This document shows, piece after piece, positions 10,606 to 23,681 of a stretch of DNA of 39,244 nucleotides; position 1 is the stretch's first letter, and each line of letters starts with the position of its first letter. The notes beneath the pieces were generated by a model, which saw nothing but the letters and a program-made list of their open reading frames with translations, was not told the origin of the DNA and did not search any database. This DNA comes from Thermodesulfovibrionales bacterium (lineage in GTDB: Bacteria; Nitrospirota; Thermodesulfovibrionia; Thermodesulfovibrionales; UBA6898). The stretch is from assembly GCA_020056455.1 (NCBI GenBank), contig JAGVHR010000235.1, positions 1 through 39,244 on the forward strand. Direction: 5' to 3'. A program made the translations under genes and the position numbers.

Positions 10606-11379
10606 TTAAGTTCTTCGGCGATCTTTTTTCTTCCAGTCTTTATGTGCCTTGTCTTTAATATGGTCCACATCTATCCTGTTTTTTATATCAGATGGAACGC
10701 AGGCCATATACTCAGGAAGAAATTTTGAATCAACCCATGCCTCTGCGCCGAGTTCAAGCCCATTGCGATAAAACCTTGCGAGGTCTTTTATAATCCCGGC
10801 AATATTTGGGGCGCCGTATAATTTTGTCTGATCAAGGTCAATAAAAAAAATACTCATTGCATCCGGATTCTCCTGCACAAGAATATTGGACCATTTCAGG
10901 TCTCCGTGAACTGCTCCGGCCAAATGCCAGTCGGCCACATTCCTGGCGAGCAGGCATGCGATATTTTCGTATTTGCTTAATTGCGGGTTATTGAATATAT
11001 GGACAAGATTCATCGAATTTTCTATTACAGAACTGAGGTAAAAGGAATTTCTCTGTTTCCAGGTGAGTTCTATGCAGGCAAAGGGTTCCGGCACCGGGAG
11101 CCCCATTTCCCAAAGCCTAAGATTTATTTTATAGAGGTGCTGCGCCCTGCTGCCGAAGACGAGCTTTGCGAGGAAGTGAAAAAAACCCTTGTAATTGAAC
11201 CTCTTTACCAATAGGTCATGGGGAAGCCCTGTATACCTGCCTGCGAGAATGCCGACAGTCGTTGACACATCATGCTTCTCCAGCACGAACGACTCCTCCC
11301 TGTTGCTGATTATCCGCTCCAGATTGGCAGACAGCAGAAAGGGATTATCAGACAAAAGGCGTAGAAATTTGCGCGGCAT
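10606..11379 (-). CDS. Kdo/WaaP-like lipopolysaccharide kinase family protein
   Basis: HGDLKWSNILVQ (catalytic loop) and IFFIDLDQTKLYG (DFD-like) with N-terminal LLVKRFNYKG; small protein-kinase-like fold of the Kdo kinase/InaA type. Confidence 0.7.
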   Translation of the reverse strand: MPRKFLRLLSDNPFLLSANLERIISNREESFVLEKHDVSTTVGILAGRYTGLPHDLLVKRFNYKGFFHFLAKLVFGSRAQHLYKINLRLWEMGLPVPEPFACIELTWKQRNSFYLSSVIENSMNLVHIFNNPQLSKYENIACLLARNVADWHLAGAVHGDLKWSNILVQENPDAMSIFFIDLDQTKLYGAPNIAGIIKDLARFYRNGLELGAEAWVDSKFLPEYMACVPSDIKNRIDVDHIKDKAHKDWKKKDRRRT

Positions 11380-13138: not shown

Positions 13139-13897
13139 ATGCCGGGAAAGGTGACAGGATATAAAGCAGTATTTTCTGAGGAAGATAAAGAAAAAATCAT
13201 CAGGGATTTCCTTCCGTTTATAAAATATACGGCAAACCGTTTTTCATGGCGGCTTCCGCCTCAAATGACCGTCGACGATCTCATCAGCAGCGGCCTCATG
13301 GGTTTGCTTGACGCGCTTGAAAAATTCGAGCACGGCAGAGTCAAGCTCAGGACATATGCCGAATTCAGGATAAAAGGGTCAATGCTCGACGAACTCAGGT
13401 CCGTGGACTGGGTGCCCAGATCCATGAAGCAGAAGATCAATGAGATCAAGACGGCCCACGGCAGTCTCGAAAAGAAACTCGGACGCATGCCTGACGATGA
13501 AGAAGTTGCTGAAATGCTTGAAATTTCCCTCGATGAGTATTATAAGACCCTCCAGAGCGCAAACGGCGCAATATCACTTCGCTTTGAGGATTTTGAGGAT
13601 GGCGGCCCGAATGAGGGCCTGAATATCCTTGAATGTATCCCTGACCGGCAGGCCAGGAGCCCGCTTGCCATGCTTGAGGAGGCTGATCAAAAAAAGGTCC
13701 TTGCCCGCTTTATCTCGGCACTCCCTGAAAAGGAAAAGCTGCTACTTTCGCTTTACTACTGGGATGAGTTGACCATGAAGGAGATTGGAAAAGTCATGAA
13801 ACTGACGGAGGGCAGGGTCTGCCAGCTCCATAGCCAGGCATTAATACGGCTTAAGGCCAGGATGTCAAATGAGATGTCGGTTAAAGAAACCGACTGA
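13139..13897 (+). CDS. fliA: RNA polymerase sigma factor FliA (sigma28)
   Basis: FLPFIKYTANRFSWRLPPQMTVDDLISSGLMGLLDALEKFEHGR, EFRIKGSMLDELRSVDWVPRSMKQK, YYWDELTMKEIGKVMKLTEGRVCQLHSQAL. The start codon is uncertain (GTG 13150 possible). Confidence 0.92.
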   Translation: MPGKVTGYKAVFSEEDKEKIIRDFLPFIKYTANRFSWRLPPQMTVDDLISSGLMGLLDALEKFEHGRVKLRTYAEFRIKGSMLDELRSVDWVPRSMKQKINEIKTAHGSLEKKLGRMPDDEEVAEMLEISLDEYYKTLQSANGAISLRFEDFEDGGPNEGLNILECIPDRQARSPLAMLEEADQKKVLARFISALPEKEKLLLSLYYWDELTMKEIGKVMKLTEGRVCQLHSQALIRLKARMSNEMSVKETD

Positions 13898-13918: not shown

Positions 13919-15766
13919 ATGAAGCGTTCCATACGCATGCCAAAATTGCTGAAAGACCTTTCCCATAGTGATGACACCAAAAGACGGGCTGCCGCGGAGC
14001 TTCTCTCAGGCGGGGATGAGCGGGCAATCTATCCTCTGATCAGGGCTTTGCAGGACAATAATCCTGGCGTTCAGGATGCAGCAATGCGCTCTCTTGTTTC
14101 CATAGGAGGTGAAGTCACTGCCTACATGGTAATCCCCCTTCTCAGGGAAGATTCGTATCTCAGGAATACTGCACTTATAATCCTGAGGGAGATCGGCGTG
14201 GAGACAGTGCCTCTTCTGTATTCTCTTCTCAGGGACAAGGATGACGATATAAGAAAATTCGCCCTTGATCTTCTGATCGACATCAATCAGGATGTTGATT
14301 CCGGGAAAATCCTGCCGCTGCTTAAGGACTCCAATCAGAATGTGCGGGCTTCGGCTGTCAGGGCTGCAGGTCTTGTGATGCAAAAAGATGCGGTCCCTTT
14401 TCTCCTCGATGCGCTCAAGGATGAGGAATGGGTATGCTTTTCCGCGCTTGAAGCGCTCGCGAAAATACAGGATGAAGCTGCTGTCCTGCCTATAGTTTCG
14501 CTCATTGAAAGTCAGAGCATGGTCCTCAGGTTTTCCGCGCTTGAGGCGCTCGGAAGCATTGGCTCGCCTATTGCGACAGGTCCCCTTTTGGCCTGTTTTT
14601 CCAGGGCTGATGAAATGGAAAAACGCGAAATAGTGAAGAGTCTTGTCCGGATCGGAGCAACTCCTTCCATGGCCGGCATATCAGGTATCCTTGTCGATAT
14701 GCTGAAAAATAGCGACTGGGACGAAAAGATGATAGCACTGAAAGGCATTGTTGCGCTCGGTCTGGAAGAAGCAATAACAGACATCGTGGACATGGGCGGA
14801 TCTCTGGACCCCTCAGCGCCTGAGAGCGAGGAAAGGCTGGACAGTATAAGGGAAGCCCTTCTGAGTTTCGGTTGCAAAGACGCTCTTGTGGGCTGCCTTG
14901 AAAACCCTTCCATTAGATTCCGCGGAAGGGTACTGGCTATCGGGCTGATCGGCGAACTCAGATGCCGGGACGCGGTCCCTTCATTGGTAAAGCTTATTGA
15001 AGGCAACCTGCGGGATGTCCGCCGTGCAAGCGTCAGGGCGCTCGGAGAGATGAGCAATAGCGGGGAGTTGCAGGTGTTTCAGGATACGATTAGCGACAAT
15101 GACAGCCATGTGAGAAAGGTGGCAATAGAGGTATTGGGCAGGATAGGCGGAAATGACTCCTTTGAACTCCTTTTGAAACTGCTCTCTGTTGAGAAATACA
15201 GGGATGTGCTTGAAGAGATAGTGAAGGCCCTTATAATACTCGATCAGCAGACTCTCTGCGGTCACGCAGGTGAATTCAACGCCACGCTCAGGGAGCTCCT
15301 TGCCCGACATGTGGACGATCAGAATGTCCTGATCAGTCTTGCAGGAGATGACAACCAGCAGGTAAGGGTCGCCGCCATAGCCGGTCTCGGCAGAATCGGC
15401 TCTGATGCGGCCATTGTACAGCTCCGGCAGTTCGTGAAAGACCCTGACAGGGAATTGAGGAAGGCTGCTGTTACGGCAATGGGTGAGCTTGGCTGCTGTT
15501 ATGACTATATCAGGGCAGCGCTTAATGATGAGGACATGTGGGTGCGACTCCATGCAGTCAAGGCCCTTGGCAGCTCAGAAGACCCGGCCAATATCGAGGC
15601 GCTGATGGCAGGGTTGAATGACAGGGAAATGCCGGTTGTCCTTTCCACAATTGATGCTGTTGCCCGGATAGGGGGACGGGAGGCATTCAGCGCGCTTGCA
15701 TGTCTTGAGGACCATGACAATCCTGTCATAAGGGAAAAGGCAGTGCAGACACTTGAGAGTTTATGA
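13919..15766 (+). CDS. Large HEAT-repeat (PBS-lyase-like) protein in chemotaxis operon
   Basis: 615 aa of recurring units such as DDNQQVRVAAIAGLGRIGSDAAIVQLRQFVKDPDRELRKAAVTAMGELG. Confidence 0.88.
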   Translation: MKRSIRMPKLLKDLSHSDDTKRRAAAELLSGGDERAIYPLIRALQDNNPGVQDAAMRSLVSIGGEVTAYMVIPLLREDSYLRNTALIILREIGVETVPLLYSLLRDKDDDIRKFALDLLIDINQDVDSGKILPLLKDSNQNVRASAVRAAGLVMQKDAVPFLLDALKDEEWVCFSALEALAKIQDEAAVLPIVSLIESQSMVLRFSALEALGSIGSPIATGPLLACFSRADEMEKREIVKSLVRIGATPSMAGISGILVDMLKNSDWDEKMIALKGIVALGLEEAITDIVDMGGSLDPSAPESEERLDSIREALLSFGCKDALVGCLENPSIRFRGRVLAIGLIGELRCRDAVPSLVKLIEGNLRDVRRASVRALGEMSNSGELQVFQDTISDNDSHVRKVAIEVLGRIGGNDSFELLLKLLSVEKYRDVLEEIVKALIILDQQTLCGHAGEFNATLRELLARHVDDQNVLISLAGDDNQQVRVAAIAGLGRIGSDAAIVQLRQFVKDPDRELRKAAVTAMGELGCCYDYIRAALNDEDMWVRLHAVKALGSSEDPANIEALMAGLNDREMPVVLSTIDAVARIGGREAFSALACLEDHDNPVIREKAVQTLESL

Positions 15767-16578
15767 ATATAATACTTCAGGATTCCACTTTCAAACAGCT
15801 CAGAGACTTTATATATGAGAAATCAGGTATTTTTATTCCTGATTCCAAGAAATATCTGCTTGAAAACCGCCTTATAAAACGTATGCAGGAAAAAAATATC
15901 ACCAATTTCGAGGACTACCTGTATCTCGTGGTTTACGGAAATAACAGTCTCGAACTTGCCAGGTTGTTTGACGCAGTTACGACAAACGAAACCTATTTTT
16001 TCAGGGAGCCCCAGCAGCTTGACGTGTTCGTCAATGACATTACGCCAAAAATCATAACCCGGAAGGCGACAAACGATATCAGTATCTGGTCTGCCGCCTC
16101 TTCCACCGGGGAGGAGCCATATAACCTTGTGATGCTGCTCAGGGAGAAGATGCCGCAGCTCCGCACCCAGGTCATCGGTTCCGATATCAGTGACAGCGTT
16201 CTTGAATCAGCCCGGAAGGCCGCTTACAGCTCCTATTCCGTGAGGAACGTGCCCCCGTTGTATATGAGTAAATATTTCAAGACAAACGGTCAGAACTTTG
16301 AGTTGGATGTGTCGGTCCGCAATGCCGTCATGTTCAAGAACCTGAACCTGATGGACAGTTCGAAAATGAAGACAGTCCGCAATATGGACGTGATCTTCTG
16401 TAGAAACGTACTCATCTATTTCGATGAAAAGGCAAAGCAAAGGGCAGTTTCTCATCTCTATGACAGCCTGAGACCCAACGGCTATCTTTTTATCGGGGCA
16501 TCGGAGAGCCTGCATAACGTGACCCGTGCTTTCAAGCCTGTTGTTATCAATAAAGTTGTCGTATATCAGAGGGGGTAG
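15763..16578 (+). CDS. cheR: CheR chemotaxis protein methyltransferase
   Basis: AVTTNETYFFREPQQLDVF, IWSAASSTGEEPYNLVMLL, MDVIFCRNVLIYFDEKAKQRAVSHLYDSLRPNGYLFIGASESL; ATGA overlap with HEAT gene. Confidence 0.95.
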   Translation: MNIILQDSTFKQLRDFIYEKSGIFIPDSKKYLLENRLIKRMQEKNITNFEDYLYLVVYGNNSLELARLFDAVTTNETYFFREPQQLDVFVNDITPKIITRKATNDISIWSAASSTGEEPYNLVMLLREKMPQLRTQVIGSDISDSVLESARKAAYSSYSVRNVPPLYMSKYFKTNGQNFELDVSVRNAVMFKNLNLMDSSKMKTVRNMDVIFCRNVLIYFDEKAKQRAVSHLYDSLRPNGYLFIGASESLHNVTRAFKPVVINKVVVYQRG

Positions 16579-16579
16579 C

Positions 16580-16972
16580 ATGAAGATATTGGTTGTAGAC
16601 GATTGCGCGACGACGAGAAAGCTCCTGAGCCTGTATCTTAAATCAAAAGGATATGAGGTGGTTACAGCTGAAAACGGTCTTGACGCCCTGGAGAAAGTCG
16701 GCAAGGAAAATGTCAACCTGGTGCTTTCTGATCTCAATATGCCCTATATGGACGGCATCGAGTTTGTGAAGAGTCTGAGGGCGAACCCTGATACCGCAGA
16801 ACTGCCGGTTGTTATGGTTACGACCGAGGCAGACCCTGAGGAGAAGGAAAAGGCCATGAAAGCAGGAGCCAATGGCTATATGATAAAACCGGTGACAGCA
16901 GAGATGGTTGCTCGGAATATAAAAGAAATCATGAAAGAACTGTTTGGAAAGGGAGGTAGTTCAGATGCCTGA
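16580..16972 (+). CDS. CheY-like response regulator (first of tandem pair)
   Basis: [20 protein letters not shown]...[17 protein letters not shown]...[27 protein letters not shown]. Confidence 0.9.
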
Positions 16973-17354
16973 TCTGAAGATGAAGTTTCTGGTTGTTGAC
17001 GATTTCTCGACGATGAGAAGGATCGTTAAGAATATCCTGAAACAACTCGGTTACGACAATATTGACGAGGCTGAAGACGGGGCACAGGCCTATTCCAAAT
17101 TGCAGAACGACCATTATGATTTCGTGATTTCAGACTGGAACATGCCTAATATGGACGGCCTTGATCTATTAAAGAAGATCAGGGGCGATGCGAGGCTGAA
17201 GGCGATGCCGGTCCTGATGGTGACGGCCGAGGCAGAAAAAGACAAGGTCATAGCCGCGATTCAGGCCGGAGTGAACAACTATATCGTAAAGCCTTTTACA
17301 GCTGAGGTGCTGAAGGAAAAAATGGACAGGATATTCGAAAAACTGGGGAAGTGA
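16965..17354 (+). CDS. cheY: CheY chemotaxis response regulator (classical type)
   Basis: [37 protein letters not shown]...[21 protein letters not shown]...[46 protein letters not shown] gggaggt. Confidence 0.95.
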
Positions 17355-17358
17355 CGTT

Positions 17359-17417
17359 AGGTATGAGTAGCGCCCTCAGTTTCTGACACCTTACACTCAT
17401 AACCTTATATTGGGCGC
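17359..17417 (+). promoter_or_regulatory. Candidate structured leader (interleaved inverted repeats, H-type pseudoknot topology) upstream of cheA
   Basis: AGGTATGAGT (17359-17368) pairs with ACTCATAACCT (17395-17405, one bulge); GCGCCC (17370-17375) pairs with GGGCGC (17412-17417); order A-B-A'-B'. Confidence 0.45.
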
Positions 17418-17433
17418 CTGCGAGGAGCGAGCA

Positions 17434-19212
17434 ATGCCGGATGAGATGGACGAGATAATCGCCGAGTTCATTACAGAGGCTGAAGAGTCTCTTGATAAGA
17501 TTGAGCCACTTTTTGTCGAGCTCGAGGCAAGGGGTCATGACAAGGAGATGCTCAACGATATCTTCAGGTCCATGCATACCATCAAGGGCGCTGCCGGTTT
17601 TCTTGGGTTCAGGAACATTGTTGATCTGTCCCACAAGGCAGAGAATATTCTCAAGAGACTGCGTGAAGGGGAGATCTCCATCTCGACATCTCTGATGGAC
17701 GCTGTGCTTAAGAGCGTGGATATGCTGAAGCTCCTTCTGCGCCACCTGAAGTTAAAAGACGGGGCAGAAGAGGATATTTCCCCTGTTGTCATTCTGCTGG
17801 ACAATGCCCTAAACGCAGCTTCAGAGCCGGTCCATGCCGCTCCTGCTGAGATAATTGCCCCTGTACAGGCAGTTGTTCCGCCCAGGACGGAACCCCGGAA
17901 GCCTGAAGACAAGGGCAAGGCGGCCTTGAATCAGGAAGAAGAAAAACCCGCTGTAAATAGCCTGCCTGAACAGCCGCCGGTTCCCGCAAAGCAGGCGGTT
18001 AATCTCCCTGCTCAGGAGTCGTTACAGACGCTTAGAATCGATGTGGAGCGGGTCGACAAGGTCATGGACCTCACCGGCGAGATCGTGCTGGTGAGAAACA
18101 GGCTTCTGAATCTGGCGAATTATCTTGAAGCAACGTACTCTGACGACAAGAATATTGAGCATCTCCTCGGCACAGTGGCCTTTCTCGACCTTGTCACTTC
18201 GGACATGCAGCTTGCTGTTATGAAGATGCGGATGCAACCCCTCAAAAAGGTCTTTGGCAAGTTCCCCCGTCTTGTCAGGGACCTTTCGAACAATATAGGC
18301 AAGGATGTGGAACTGGTGCTCTCCGGTGAAGACACTGAAGTGGACCGTTCTGTTATTGAACATATAAGCGACCCTATGGTACATATCATAAGAAATGCCA
18401 TTGATCACGGCTTAGAGTCACGGGACGAAAGGGCAGGGGCCAACAAGCCGGTCAGGGGCAAGCTCTCCATCAGGGCCTTTCAGCAGGGCAATACCATTAT
18501 TATTGAGGTCTCCGATGACGGCAAGGGCATAGATCTCGAGAAGGTCAAGAGGAAGGCTGTAGAGAGGCGGTTGATCACAGAAGAAGAGGCCCAGCGCATG
18601 ACGGACGACAATGCCGTCAACCTTATCTTCCTGCCGGGTTTTTCAACCATGGAGAAGACTACGGAGCTGAGCGGCCGGGGCGTAGGTATGGACGTGGTAA
18701 AAACGAATATCTCCAAGTTGAACGGCTATGTCGAGGTGATGACAAGAAAAGGCGCGGGCTCGACTTTCAGAATCAGCATCCCGCTGACTCTTGCCATTAT
18801 CCAGGCGCTTATGGTGAGAGCAGGCAACTCTCAGTTTGCAATTCCACTTGCCCCGGTTGAGGAGACGCTCAAGGTGCAACGCAGGGAAATAGAGAATATT
18901 ACCGGCCAGAAGGCTCTGGTGGTGCGCGATAAAGTGCACCCGCTTTTTGAAATGACCGATATCCTGAACCTTGACGACAGAGGCGCTGCAGACTCCCGCT
19001 ATGTGCTTGTCATAGCTATCGGCGACAGGAGATTCTGCATCGCAGTCGACGAACTCCTCGGTCAGGAAGAGGTTGTGATCAAGACTATCCAGGGTATAGA
19101 AACAGATTCCTCATTTATACTCGGGGCTACTGTAACCGGAGAGGGCAGGGTGGTGCTTATTCTCGACCTGGCAGGCATATCAAGAAACATCATTGGAACG
19201 TTGAAGGTTTAA
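17434..19212 (+). CDS. cheA: CheA chemotaxis histidine kinase (no obvious P2 domain)
   Basis: P1 SMHTIKGAAGFLGF; P3 LRIDVERVDKVMDLTGEIVLVRNRL; P4 HIIRNAIDHGLESRDER, DDGKGID, GRGVGMDVV; P5 CheW-like C-terminus; between P1 and P3 only a Pro/Ala/Glu-rich linker. Confidence 0.94.
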   Translation: MPDEMDEIIAEFITEAEESLDKIEPLFVELEARGHDKEMLNDIFRSMHTIKGAAGFLGFRNIVDLSHKAENILKRLREGEISISTSLMDAVLKSVDMLKLLLRHLKLKDGAEEDISPVVILLDNALNAASEPVHAAPAEIIAPVQAVVPPRTEPRKPEDKGKAALNQEEEKPAVNSLPEQPPVPAKQAVNLPAQESLQTLRIDVERVDKVMDLTGEIVLVRNRLLNLANYLEATYSDDKNIEHLLGTVAFLDLVTSDMQLAVMKMRMQPLKKVFGKFPRLVRDLSNNIGKDVELVLSGEDTEVDRSVIEHISDPMVHIIRNAIDHGLESRDERAGANKPVRGKLSIRAFQQGNTIIIEVSDDGKGIDLEKVKRKAVERRLITEEEAQRMTDDNAVNLIFLPGFSTMEKTTELSGRGVGMDVVKTNISKLNGYVEVMTRKGAGSTFRISIPLTLAIIQALMVRAGNSQFAIPLAPVEETLKVQRREIENITGQKALVVRDKVHPLFEMTDILNLDDRGAADSRYVLVIAIGDRRFCIAVDELLGQEEVVIKTIQGIETDSSFILGATVTGEGRVVLILDLAGISRNIIGTLKV

Positions 19213-19221
19213 GGAGGGCTG

Positions 19222-20415
19222 ATGCGGCAATATATCGGATTTCATCTCAACGGTAGTGAGTACTCGATCCCCATCCTTAAGGTGCGCGAGATCATCAGCA
19301 TGCCTGAGATTACAAGGATGCCGCAATCTCTTTCTTATATAGAGGGCGTGACGAATTTGCGGGGAAGCATTGTCCCGATCATTAATCTCAAAAAGCTTGT
19401 TCATCTGGGCAATGAGGACGAGCTCGGCGCCAAGGTGATTGTAGTGGCAAGCGGCAGTATGACCTTCGGCGTGCTTGTTGATGATATCAGCGGAGTCGTT
19501 ACCATTGAAGAGTCGGAGATCGAGCCTCCAGACCGTTTTCTGAGCAGCAGTATGGAGCAGATCGAAGGTGTGGCAAAGCTCAAGGACAGGCTTATCGTTC
19601 TTCTCGATACCAAACGGCTCATACCATGTGAGGACATTACGGTCTTTGAGGATGTCATCGTGGATATTAAGGAGGCAGGGGACGGCACAGTGGAAGTGGT
19701 CAAAAAGGTGCACACCAGCGGAGGAGAAACAACAGTGAAGGAAGTCCGCGATGCAAAGGAGTTTTTTGAAAAACGGGGAATAAGCTCGCAGGACCCGAGA
19801 TATGTGCTCGTTGATGATCTTATCTCTTTTATGGACGCTATAGCTGAGAATGATTATGACAAGGCTGATTTGGCCATCCAGGGCATACTGAAAAAGGGAC
19901 AATCTGATCTTTTTCGGGAGATCGGGAAGATAACGCGGAAGATGCATGATTCGATCAAGAGTTTCAGGGATGCTATTGATCCCAAGCTTAAGGATATGGC
20001 AAACGTTGAAATGCCTAATGCCGTAGACAGGCTCCAGCATGTCATAAGCAAAACCGAGGAGGCGGCAAACAAGACCATGGGCATTGTTGAGAAGTATATG
20101 CTGAAGATGGACGAACTGTCTGCCAGGATCAGCACCCTGAAGGAGCCTTTGGATACAATCTCATATCTCAGAGGCTTTAAAAACGGACTTGAAGACGACC
20201 TGACGGAGATTCTTACGACCCAGTCATTTCAGGATCTGACAGGCCAGACGATCAAGAAGGTCATCAGGCTCGTAGGCGATATAGAGGCCGAACTTGTGAG
20301 GCTTATCTCCACCTTCGGCGTGAAGATGGATGCTGGGGCTGTGGTCGAAATGCCTGTTACGGAGCAGGTCTCCCAATCCGGAGTTGACGACCTGCTGAAG
20401 GATTTCGGGTTTTAG
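19222..20415 (+). CDS. CheW-CheZ fusion: N-terminal CheW domain, C-terminal CheZ-type CheY-P phosphatase
   Basis: Residues about 1-138 CheW (YIGFHLNGSEYSIPILKVREIISMPEITRMPQSLSYIEGVTNLRGSIVPIINLKKL); about 228-397 CheZ (LFREIGKITRKMHDSI, AVDRLQHVISKTEEAANKTM, LTEILTTQSFQDLTGQTIKKVIRL, C-terminal QSGVDDLLKDFGF). Confidence 0.9.
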   Translation: MRQYIGFHLNGSEYSIPILKVREIISMPEITRMPQSLSYIEGVTNLRGSIVPIINLKKLVHLGNEDELGAKVIVVASGSMTFGVLVDDISGVVTIEESEIEPPDRFLSSSMEQIEGVAKLKDRLIVLLDTKRLIPCEDITVFEDVIVDIKEAGDGTVEVVKKVHTSGGETTVKEVRDAKEFFEKRGISSQDPRYVLVDDLISFMDAIAENDYDKADLAIQGILKKGQSDLFREIGKITRKMHDSIKSFRDAIDPKLKDMANVEMPNAVDRLQHVISKTEEAANKTMGIVEKYMLKMDELSARISTLKEPLDTISYLRGFKNGLEDDLTEILTTQSFQDLTGQTIKKVIRLVGDIEAELVRLISTFGVKMDAGAVVEMPVTEQVSQSGVDDLLKDFGF

Positions 20416-20466: not shown

Positions 20467-21522
20467 ATGGTAAGGGTACTGATAGTAGACGATTCTGCGT
20501 TTATGCGCAACGCGCTGTCGTCCATGCTTTCCTCGGATCCTGAGATCCAGGTCGTGGCTGTTGCGCGCGACGGCATAGAGGCGATTGAGAAGATCAGGAC
20601 TTTAAAACCGGACATCGTCACCATGGATGTCGAAATGCCGAGGCTTGACGGCATCTCGGCCCTCAGACAGATCATGCAGCAAAATCCGGTCCCGGTAATT
20701 ATGGTGAGTTCACTGACGACTGACGATGCGAAGGTGACTCTCGATGCCCTTGAGCTGGGCGCTGCGGATTTTATTCCCAAGAATCTTTCAAACCTCTCAA
20801 TAGATATCGTCAATATCAGAGAGATCCTCATCAGTAAAGTAAAACAGATCGCCAGGAAAGGCATTCCAAAGCGGAGCCGTATGCCTCTGAATATGGATGT
20901 CCATCCTGCTGAAAAACCGCAGGCCATGCCTGTACGGACCACGGGCGACAGGCGGGTCAGTATTGTGGCGATCGGATCATCTACAGGCGGCCCCAAGGCG
21001 CTGCAGGAGATTATTCCGAGGCTGCCGGGGGAATTTCCTGTGCCGGTCATCATATCACAACATATGCCGGCGAGCTTTACCGGGCACTTTGCCCAGAGGC
21101 TCAACGAACTGAGCCTGATTACGGTAAAAGAAGCCCAGGAAGGCGATGTCTTGAAGCCCGGAGTTGTCTTTATCGCCCCTGGAAGAGGCCACATGCGGGT
21201 ACAAAGGAGACGGTCGCTTGAAACTGTTGTGACCATATCTGAGGAGAGCGGGGAGTATATCTACCGGCCTTCTGTGGACGCCCTCATGCTGTCTGTCTCA
21301 GAGTGTTTTCCAGGAAGGGCCCTCGGGGTGATCCTTACCGGAATGGGAAACGACGGCGTAAAAGGGCTGACAGCCATGAAGCAGACCGGCGCGCGAATCT
21401 TTGCGCAAAACGAAGATTCCTGTGTTGTATACGGCATGCCGAAAGCTGTTGTGGATGCGGGTATTGCCGATAAAATTCTCTCTATCGAAGAGCTGGCCGG
21501 CGAGATCCTGAATTCAGTTTAG
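20467..21522 (+). CDS. cheB: CheB protein-glutamate methylesterase
   Basis: RVLIVDDSAFMRNALSSML, VTMDVEMPRLDGISALRQIM, AIGSSTGGPKALQEIIPRLP, SQHMPASFTGHFAQRLN, GMGNDGVKGLTAMK. Confidence 0.96.
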   Translation: MVRVLIVDDSAFMRNALSSMLSSDPEIQVVAVARDGIEAIEKIRTLKPDIVTMDVEMPRLDGISALRQIMQQNPVPVIMVSSLTTDDAKVTLDALELGAADFIPKNLSNLSIDIVNIREILISKVKQIARKGIPKRSRMPLNMDVHPAEKPQAMPVRTTGDRRVSIVAIGSSTGGPKALQEIIPRLPGEFPVPVIISQHMPASFTGHFAQRLNELSLITVKEAQEGDVLKPGVVFIAPGRGHMRVQRRRSLETVVTISEESGEYIYRPSVDALMLSVSECFPGRALGVILTGMGNDGVKGLTAMKQTGARIFAQNEDSCVVYGMPKAVVDAGIADKILSIEELAGEILNSV

Positions 21523-21565: not shown

Positions 21566-23167
21566 ATGAGGCTGACATTGGCTAAGAAGCTGTATGGTGT
21601 GATCATAGTATTGTCCGGGCTGCTTCTGATCTGCGGATCCATGTCGTTTTATCTGCAGAGGCATCTTGTCGGACAATACCAGGGGCTTGCCGCAGATGAC
21701 GGCGTACAGATGGAGGCCGGTATGGAGGCCAGGGTCCAGCTGGGGACTGCTGTCAATGCATACAAGAACTATCTGGTGCGCGGCGATGATAATTACGTGA
21801 AGGAGTTTCATGGCGCTGTTGAGAAGATTGAGCTTGGGCTGAAGAAATGGGAGGCGCTTGTTGAAGATGATGAGGAGAAGAGGGCGATTAGTGAGTCCAA
21901 TGAAGCTCTCGCTGCATTCAGGAAATCCATTGGGACCCTGGTAGAAGTGCGCAAAGGGAATTCGGACATTATTGCTGTGGACAAGCTGGCAAAGAGCGCT
22001 GACAGGGAACTTGCAGAAGCTCTTTCCCGTCTCGATGCTATTGCAGAGAAAAACTACGGCCTGCAGGAAAAGGAGATACTGGCCTCGGCAGGCCGGCTTT
22101 CCCTTGCTCAGCTTCTGCTTATAATCGTGTTCATCATTGCAGGCAGTATACTCAGCGCCATGACAGTGCGGGGCATCCTGAGGTCGCTTAAGGTTATGGC
22201 TGACACTATTGCTCACGTAGCTGAAGGAGACCTTTCGCAGGATGTGCCTGTAAGCCAGGACGATGAGATAGGCGAAATGGTAAAGGGCTTCAACTCCATG
22301 TTGGAGAACCTGCGCGCTATAACAAACCAGATCAAACGTTCTGCCACAACGCTTGCTGCCAGTTCGGAACAGCTTTCCGCCACTACGAATTCCCTGAGCA
22401 AGGGAGCGCAGGACCAGTCCCGGCAGACAGATCAGGCAGCAGCCGCGATTGCCGAAGTTGCGCAGACTGTAATGGACGTTGCTCAGAATGCCTCTTCAGC
22501 CTCGAATTCCTCAAAGGAGGCCAGCAGGATAGCTGATGAGGGAAAGCAAAAAGTAGCTGACACTGTTGAAGGCATGCACGACATAGCAGATACGGTAAAG
22601 GAGGCTGCCGCAACGATAACCGAGCTCGGCAAGTCAAGCCAGGAAATAGGCAATATAGTCAGGACTATAAATGACATTGCCGACCAGACAAACCTGCTTG
22701 CCCTGAATGCTGCAATCGAGGCTGCGCGCGCTGGAGAGCAGGGCAGGGGCTTTGCTGTTGTTGCCGATGAGGTGCGGAAACTCGCAGAGCGCACAGGCAA
22801 GGCGACGCGCGAGATCGGCGAGATGATAAGGAAGATACAGAGCGAGACTGAGCGGTCGGTCCATAGCATGAACTCAGGAATCGAGGAAGTTGAAAAAGGG
22901 GTAAAACTCGCGGAAGGGGCACGCGGCGCCATGATGCGCATAGTCGAGGCCTCGAACCATGGCACTGACATGATCCAGCGGATAGCGGCAGCTGCGGAGC
23001 AGCAGTCTGCAGCAACGGAAGAGGTGTCTTCGGGCATGGAGTCCATTGCTAATGTTACCCGCAATACGGAGGCCGCTTCTTCGCAGATACAGTCTGCGGC
23101 CCATGATCTCGCCCGCGTTGCAACAGAACTAAAGACAGTGATGGACTGGTTCAGGCTTCAGGGGTAG
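21566..23167 (+). CDS. Methyl-accepting chemotaxis protein
   Basis: Two TM segments flanking a helical periplasmic domain, HAMP, and signalling hairpin [47 protein letters not shown]. Confidence 0.96.
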
Positions 23168-23201: not shown

Positions 23202-23681
23202 ATGGACGGAAAGATATTACAGTTGGTAACATTCAGTCTGGGCAATGAAGAATATGCCATGGATATCCTGAAAGTGCAGGAGATCAACCGAATGGTTGAG
23301 ATAACCCCTGTGCCGAACTCACCTGTATTTCTTGAGGGTGTGATAAACCTCAGGGGAAAGGTCATACCGGTTGTGACCCTGAGGAAAAAGTTCGGTCTTT
23401 CCATTAAAGCCAATGATGAACAATCACGGATCATGATCCTCGACATACAGGGGATTACGACCGGCCTTGTTGTCGATAGCGTATCAGAGGTATTGAGGAT
23501 CAGCGCCGACACAGTGGAGCCTCCTCCGCCTATGGCAACAAATATCAGCGCTGAGTTCATCAAGGGCATCGCAAAGCTCGAAAAAAGGCTGATTATTCTT
23601 CTTGATATCGATAAGCTTCTCGGCAGGGCTGAAAGCCGCGAGCTTGCAGCTTCATCATCAAAGCTGCTGAACAATGGATGA
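23202..23681 (+). CDS. cheW: CheW adaptor protein
   Basis: QLVTFSLGNEEYAMDILKVQEINRMVEITPVPNSPVFLEGVINLRGKVIPVVTLRKKFGL. Confidence 0.95.
   Translation: MDGKILQLVTFSLGNEEYAMDILKVQEINRMVEITPVPNSPVFLEGVINLRGKVIPVVTLRKKFGLSIKANDEQSRIMILDIQGITTGLVVDSVSEVLRISADTVEPPPPMATNISAEFIKGIAKLEKRLIILLDIDKLLGRAESRELAASSSKLLNNG

Follow-up and report, generated by a model that had tools for sequence, protein, structure and literature searches.

The window, by which we mean the whole stretch of 39,244 nucleotides of DNA that was analysed, contains a cheW-cheZ fusion gene (19222-20415, + strand). Its 397-aa product joins a complete CheW domain to a complete CheZ domain. The fusion is genuine, old, and widely conserved, and it is fixed throughout the window's class rather than being a local peculiarity. 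We infer its consequence for signalling from the sequence. The protein is most likely an array-embedded CheY-P phosphatase, and we give a probability of roughly 0.7 to the reading that it is a bifunctional scaffold-phosphatase, with its CheW head in the array and its CheZ tethered covalently from the base. E. coli mutants and models have been used to debate how much it matters where CheZ sits relative to CheA (e.g. PMC2673030). A link between adaptor domain and phosphatase that a whole bacterial class has made covalent is a natural experiment, and one in which the two parts can be separated by cutting the linker. The fusion suggests a second way, beside CheA-short, of holding CheZ at the array, and it also suggests a phosphatase-bearing counterpart of CheV.

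A single uninterrupted gene

The fusion ORF runs without interruption from an ATG at 19222 to a stop codon that ends at 20415. It begins 9 bases after the cheA stop codon, which its ribosome-binding site AAGGAGG (19211-19217, + strand) overlaps. Pfam matches to CheW (2e-34) and CheZ (1.4e-34) lie within the one open frame, in agreement with the single-ORF fusion of 397 aa proposed in the preliminary description, and both score far above their gathering cut-offs. With a profile built on 36 full-length relatives, E. coli CheW (2ho9) is matched at 3.6e-38, and E. coli CheZ (1kmi) at 1.8e-31 over chain residues 8-214, nearly its whole length.

The window's source assembly is fragmented (263 contigs), which would speak for a frameshift or an assembly join that merged separate cheW and cheZ genes. 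However, named Nitrospirae MAGs contain relatives with whole-length matches at 61-77%, and full-length, uninterrupted homologues at 28-81% identity are found in many genomes, some of them single-contig assemblies (e.g. G038, G047, G131, and G200). Because the same fusion recurs across this range of identities, an assembly or sequencing artefact is ruled out, and the chance that two ORFs were falsely merged is negligible.

Two complete domains and a linker with a conserved element

The CheW domain (residues 1-138; 19222-19635, + strand) is complete. Pfam PF01584 covers residues 3-134 (118.6 bits against a cut-off of 23.5), and Foldseek strongly recovers the CheW fold from the monomer model (8c5v_E, 2e-12, TMt 0.88). 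The fused domain has in common with CheW (PF01584; 2ho9, 8c5v, 2ch4) the complete fold and the salt-bridge residues, and it differs from free CheW in being permanently joined to a phosphatase and in belonging to an old clade apart from the free CheW of its own cluster. The E38-R62 salt bridge of E. coli CheW aligns its receptor and kinase sites (PMC3828127). The equivalent residues of the fusion, E23 and R47, are invariant in 79/79 fusions, and CheW positions G57, G99, V108, and G133 are invariant in 33/33.

R117 and F122, which belong to interface 2 in E. coli CheW, are poorly kept in the fused domain, and they vary in the free CheWs of fusion genomes too. This variability, together with the presence of a free CheW in the window cluster and in many relatives, would be consistent with a CheW half that no longer builds arrays but instead stabilises, dimerises, or loosely targets CheZ, in which case free CheW would be the adaptor and the phosphatase would be mostly cytoplasmic. 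We consider this unlikely, since the residues on which CheW geometry depends do not vary and the fused CheW, with a mean column conservation of 0.63, matches the catalytic half (about 0.67). The compact genome G238 (96% complete, one CheA) also speaks against it. The only CheW domains found there are those of the fusion and of CheA itself, a finding in favour of an adaptor role for the CheW half, with the limit that the G238 assembly is fragmented and a CheW gene may have been missed.

The linker between the two domains had been placed at residues 139-228, which is too long. The alignment of free CheZs from proteobacterial replicons starts at fusion residue 182-188 and the modelled CheZ helices begin at 192, so the linker occupies about residues 139-190 (19636-19791, + strand) and residues ~182-228 are part of CheZ. 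Helices at 192-208, 212-225, and 228-251 appear, to within a residue, in both AlphaFold models, one run with 36 sequences and the other with 79. No Pfam family scores over its cut-off in the linker, and it matches no known domain. It nevertheless has a conserved element at residues 145-177 (19654-19752, + strand) with the pattern VEV.K.....GGE..VKE, in which G168 and E174 are conserved at a level of at least 90% in 79 fusions. Strands are modelled at 146-152, 156-165, and 168-177 with low confidence (pLDDT about 45), and the linker may therefore carry a conserved, weakly modelled beta element. Families f14 and f22 have fusions that differ in the linker.

The same element bears on whether the gene could yield two products, namely the full fusion and a free CheZ translated from an internal start in the linker, much as CheA-short is produced. 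A GTG at residue 172 of the window's gene (19735-19737) is preceded by an SD-like GGAGG. However, candidate starts with an SD-like sequence are found in 17/31 fusion genes, at scattered positions of which none is conserved, and the other 14/31 have none. The SD-like run is made up of GGE codons, which the conserved amino-acid motif accounts for, and we regard a second product as very unlikely.

The CheZ half (residues 191-397; 19792-20412, + strand) is delimited by Pfam, the profile alignment to 1kmi, the free-CheZ alignment, and the model. It is complete, with PF04344 matching from residue 229 to the end (120.2 bits against a cut-off of 30.7). The model has two N-terminal helices followed by a long helical hairpin (254-305/310-365). 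As a whole the full-chain AlphaFold model is moderate (mean pLDDT 69, pTM 0.36) and weak in the linker, and from the monomer model Foldseek recovers CheZ weakly and not convincingly. The full-length profile match, the D143/Q147 pair, and the C-terminal CheY-binding helix are shared with E. coli CheZ (PF04344; 1kmi), whereas the fusion adds an N-terminal CheW and a linker, and its hairpin is shorter and does not have the apical residues W94/W97/F98.

The catalytic motif SFQDLTGQ spans residues 335-342 (20224-20247, + strand). Its D338 and Q342 align with D143 and Q147 of E. coli CheZ, which bears out the preliminary description's claim that the catalytic signature is kept; D338 is present in 79/79 fusions and Q342 in 77/79. 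The putative CheY-binding helix noted there at the C-terminus (residues 386-397; 20377-20412, + strand) also holds up, since SGVDDLLKDFGF aligns with SQDQVDDLLDSLGF of E. coli CheZ and a helix is predicted at residues 386-394.

Both exceptions at Q342 are second fusion copies in genomes G192 and G306, which belong to genus g42. These copies (G192:C21 and G306:C77; loci L136, 1-1182, - strand, and L141, 1-1179, + strand) have an Arg at the position of Q342 and keep the Asp. Around the G192 copy, no che gene was recognised out to about 5 kb. The g42 second copies are possibly catalytically dead paralogues.

Predicted anchoring at the chemotaxis array

The residues W94/W97/F98, which we take to be those in the apical loop of E. 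coli CheZ that are used for CheA binding, are gapped in 20/33 fusions, including that of the window, and are mostly not aromatic in the remainder. Loss of these aromatics as a result of fusion was considered and rejected, because they are missing from the free CheZs of Nitrospirota as well. In 1kmi, the hairpin of E. coli CheZ has its apical loop at one end and its N-terminal base at the other, so the fusion CheZ would be attached from the other end than E. coli CheZ. The fusion would be held through the N-terminal base of CheZ by a covalent tether, and E. coli CheZ through its apical loop by CheA-short. The role of the CheZ apical loop in E. coli CheA binding has been described (PMC7750401). 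With W94/W97/F98 missing and the equivalents of E38 and R62 invariant, array anchoring without CheA-short, as the preliminary description proposed, is the most economical reading.

In the scaffold-phosphatase arrangement that we favour, the CheW head would occupy the receptor-CheA-CheW array as an ordinary adaptor would. The CheZ halves of two molecules could pair into the usual four-helix bundle, and the resulting two-headed dimer could hold two adaptor sites, with the CheZ bundle hanging from the CheW heads by the ~50-residue linker. Neighbouring CheA would make CheY-P, probably that of the second, E. coli-like CheY of the cluster. The C-terminal helix would then catch CheY-P, and hydrolysis aided by D338 and Q342 would take place close to CheA. 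A CheY-P lifetime "set by array occupancy" had also been suggested, but this is unsupported and does not follow from the domains, from their conservation, or from the mechanism proposed here.

A broader possibility, which we put forward tentatively and at less than even odds, is that the array lattice of the whole class carries its phosphatase. Two-headed CheW-CheZ dimers would then form part of the structure of the adaptor ring, being the only free adaptor in some species, and kinase, adaptor, and phosphatase would be held in a fixed geometry with CheZ attached by its base and not by its apex.

Several known systems resemble parts of this arrangement. CheV (CheW plus receiver) is likewise a CheW-based adaptor that carries a second signalling domain, but the partner domain in the fusion is a CheZ phosphatase and not a receiver. 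Pfam finds no receiver in the fusion protein, whose C-terminal half is CheZ, and the protein is thus not a CheV. In Nitrospira-like relatives the equivalent operon encodes a CheW-receiver protein alongside a free CheZ. The nearest report that we found is from Leptospirae, where a CheY-P phosphatase is also fused to a core array component (PMC10542144). There, a CheC/CheX family phosphatase is carried on the kinase CheA, whereas here CheZ is carried on the adaptor. The CheZ of Azorhizobium caulinodans is similar in localising without the E. coli CheA-short determinants (PMC7750401). However, it is unfused and localises without chemotaxis proteins (PMC7750401), whereas the fusion would be expected to need the array. 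No CheW-CheZ fusion is described in the open-access full texts that were searched, and the architecture may have been catalogued before.

Chemotaxis cluster, distribution, and history

The window's fusion gene lies in a conserved flagellar che operon. Its cluster opens with a FliA-type sigma factor and extends to flagellar rod and ring genes, and the genes named here are on the + strand. At its head, the sigma factor (13139-13897; Pfam sigma-70 regions 2, 3, and 4) is followed by a HEAT-repeat protein of 615 aa (13919-15766), which is found directly before cheR here and in most fusion clusters. Then come cheR (15763-16578; Pfam), a first cheY (16580-16972) with 41% identity to E. coli CheY, a second cheY (16944-17354) with 67% identity, and cheA (17410-19212). 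The fusion gene is succeeded by cheB (20467-21522), a methyl-accepting chemotaxis receptor (21566-23167), both identified by Pfam, and a free cheW (23202-23681; Pfam 6.2e-41) whose product falls in a clade apart from the fused CheW. The second CheY satisfies the NCBIfam CheY equivalog model (205.8 bits against a cut-off of 189), and from its sequence it is the likely substrate of the fusion. The tandem cheY genes overlap as called, and the pair is kept in most fusion clusters. A Kdo/WaaP-type lipopolysaccharide kinase gene (10606-11379, - strand) lies between motAB-like genes and the che cluster.

The commonest order across families is HEAT-cheR-cheY-cheY-cheA-fusion-cheB, and clusters of this kind often continue with a receptor, a free cheW, an HDOD gene, and flagellar genes. 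Families f3 and f22 have the alternative order cheY-fusion-cheA-cheB. Two Nitrospira-like genomes (f29), in which CheZ is free, have the order cheR-cheY-cheZ-cheA-(CheW plus receiver)-cheB.

The window's CheA has domains P1, P3, P4, and P5 and a Pro/Glu-rich stretch between P1 and P3. P2 was detected neither in this CheA nor in eight other Nitrospirota CheAs, and the E. coli control matched PF09078. The missing P2 could indicate that the fusion is mainly a device for docking CheY or acting as a phosphate sink at the array, with its C-terminal helix replacing P2 and dephosphorylation being secondary. The orphan paralogues in G192 and G306, in which the architecture is retained but Arg stands in place of the catalytic Gln, might be taken the same way. 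However, this alternative has to contend with the near-universal retention of D338 and Q342 in the fusions, and P2 is also undetected in CheAs from free-CheZ genomes (L068 and L067). We accord it only a slight probability compared with an array-embedded phosphatase. A link between P2 loss and the fusion was likewise rejected, because the absence of P2 in these free-CheZ genomes means that it does not track the fusion.

Neither CheC nor CheX is matched in the window's genome (92% complete), which leaves the fusion as its sole recognised CheY-P phosphatase. The window's genus divides cleanly, with three genomes that have the fusion without CheC/CheX and five with the reverse. The che cluster of G002 (L094), the one genome of the CheX type inspected in this genus, is a different one. 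In a set of 61 relatives the fusion and CheC/CheX are not associated (odds ratio 0.74, p = 0.78). In light of this result and of the differing G002 cluster, we do not propose an order-wide exchange between the fusion and CheC/CheX.

A fusion covering most or all of the profile occurs in 92/396 sampled Nitrospirota genomes from 14 families, and G070, in which the two parts are fused by its open frame, is a 93rd. In the window's class the full fusion is present in 88 of the 94 CheZ-positive genomes. The six others comprise a cut-off fragment (G398) and five weaker matches. Free CheZs of about 200-290 aa occur in other Nitrospirota families (e.g. f26, f29, f33, and f35). Among plasmids, there is no fusion match that covers 80% of the query.

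In the CheZ tree the class fusions form one group, to which E. coli CheZ is attached on a long branch, and the f22 fusions sit with free CheZs. A single origin of all fusions is rejected only at the borderline (p-AU 0.056). Two f25 fusions (L064, 4186-5433, and L065, 976-2367) nest inside the clade of the window's class, a placement that points to horizontal transfer or to mis-binning of contigs.

In the CheW tree most fused CheWs group apart from the free CheW of their own cluster, and those of f14 and f22 are nearer free CheWs. The position of E. coli V105 is Ile in 33/33 fused CheWs and Val in 16/16 free CheWs. The separate clade and this Ile/Val split make the CheW half an old paralogue rather than a recently made duplicate of its neighbour. 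Only one free CheW (W7755; L082, 7755-8240) nests among the fused CheWs. It has a long branch and may derive from a fusion by loss of the CheZ half.
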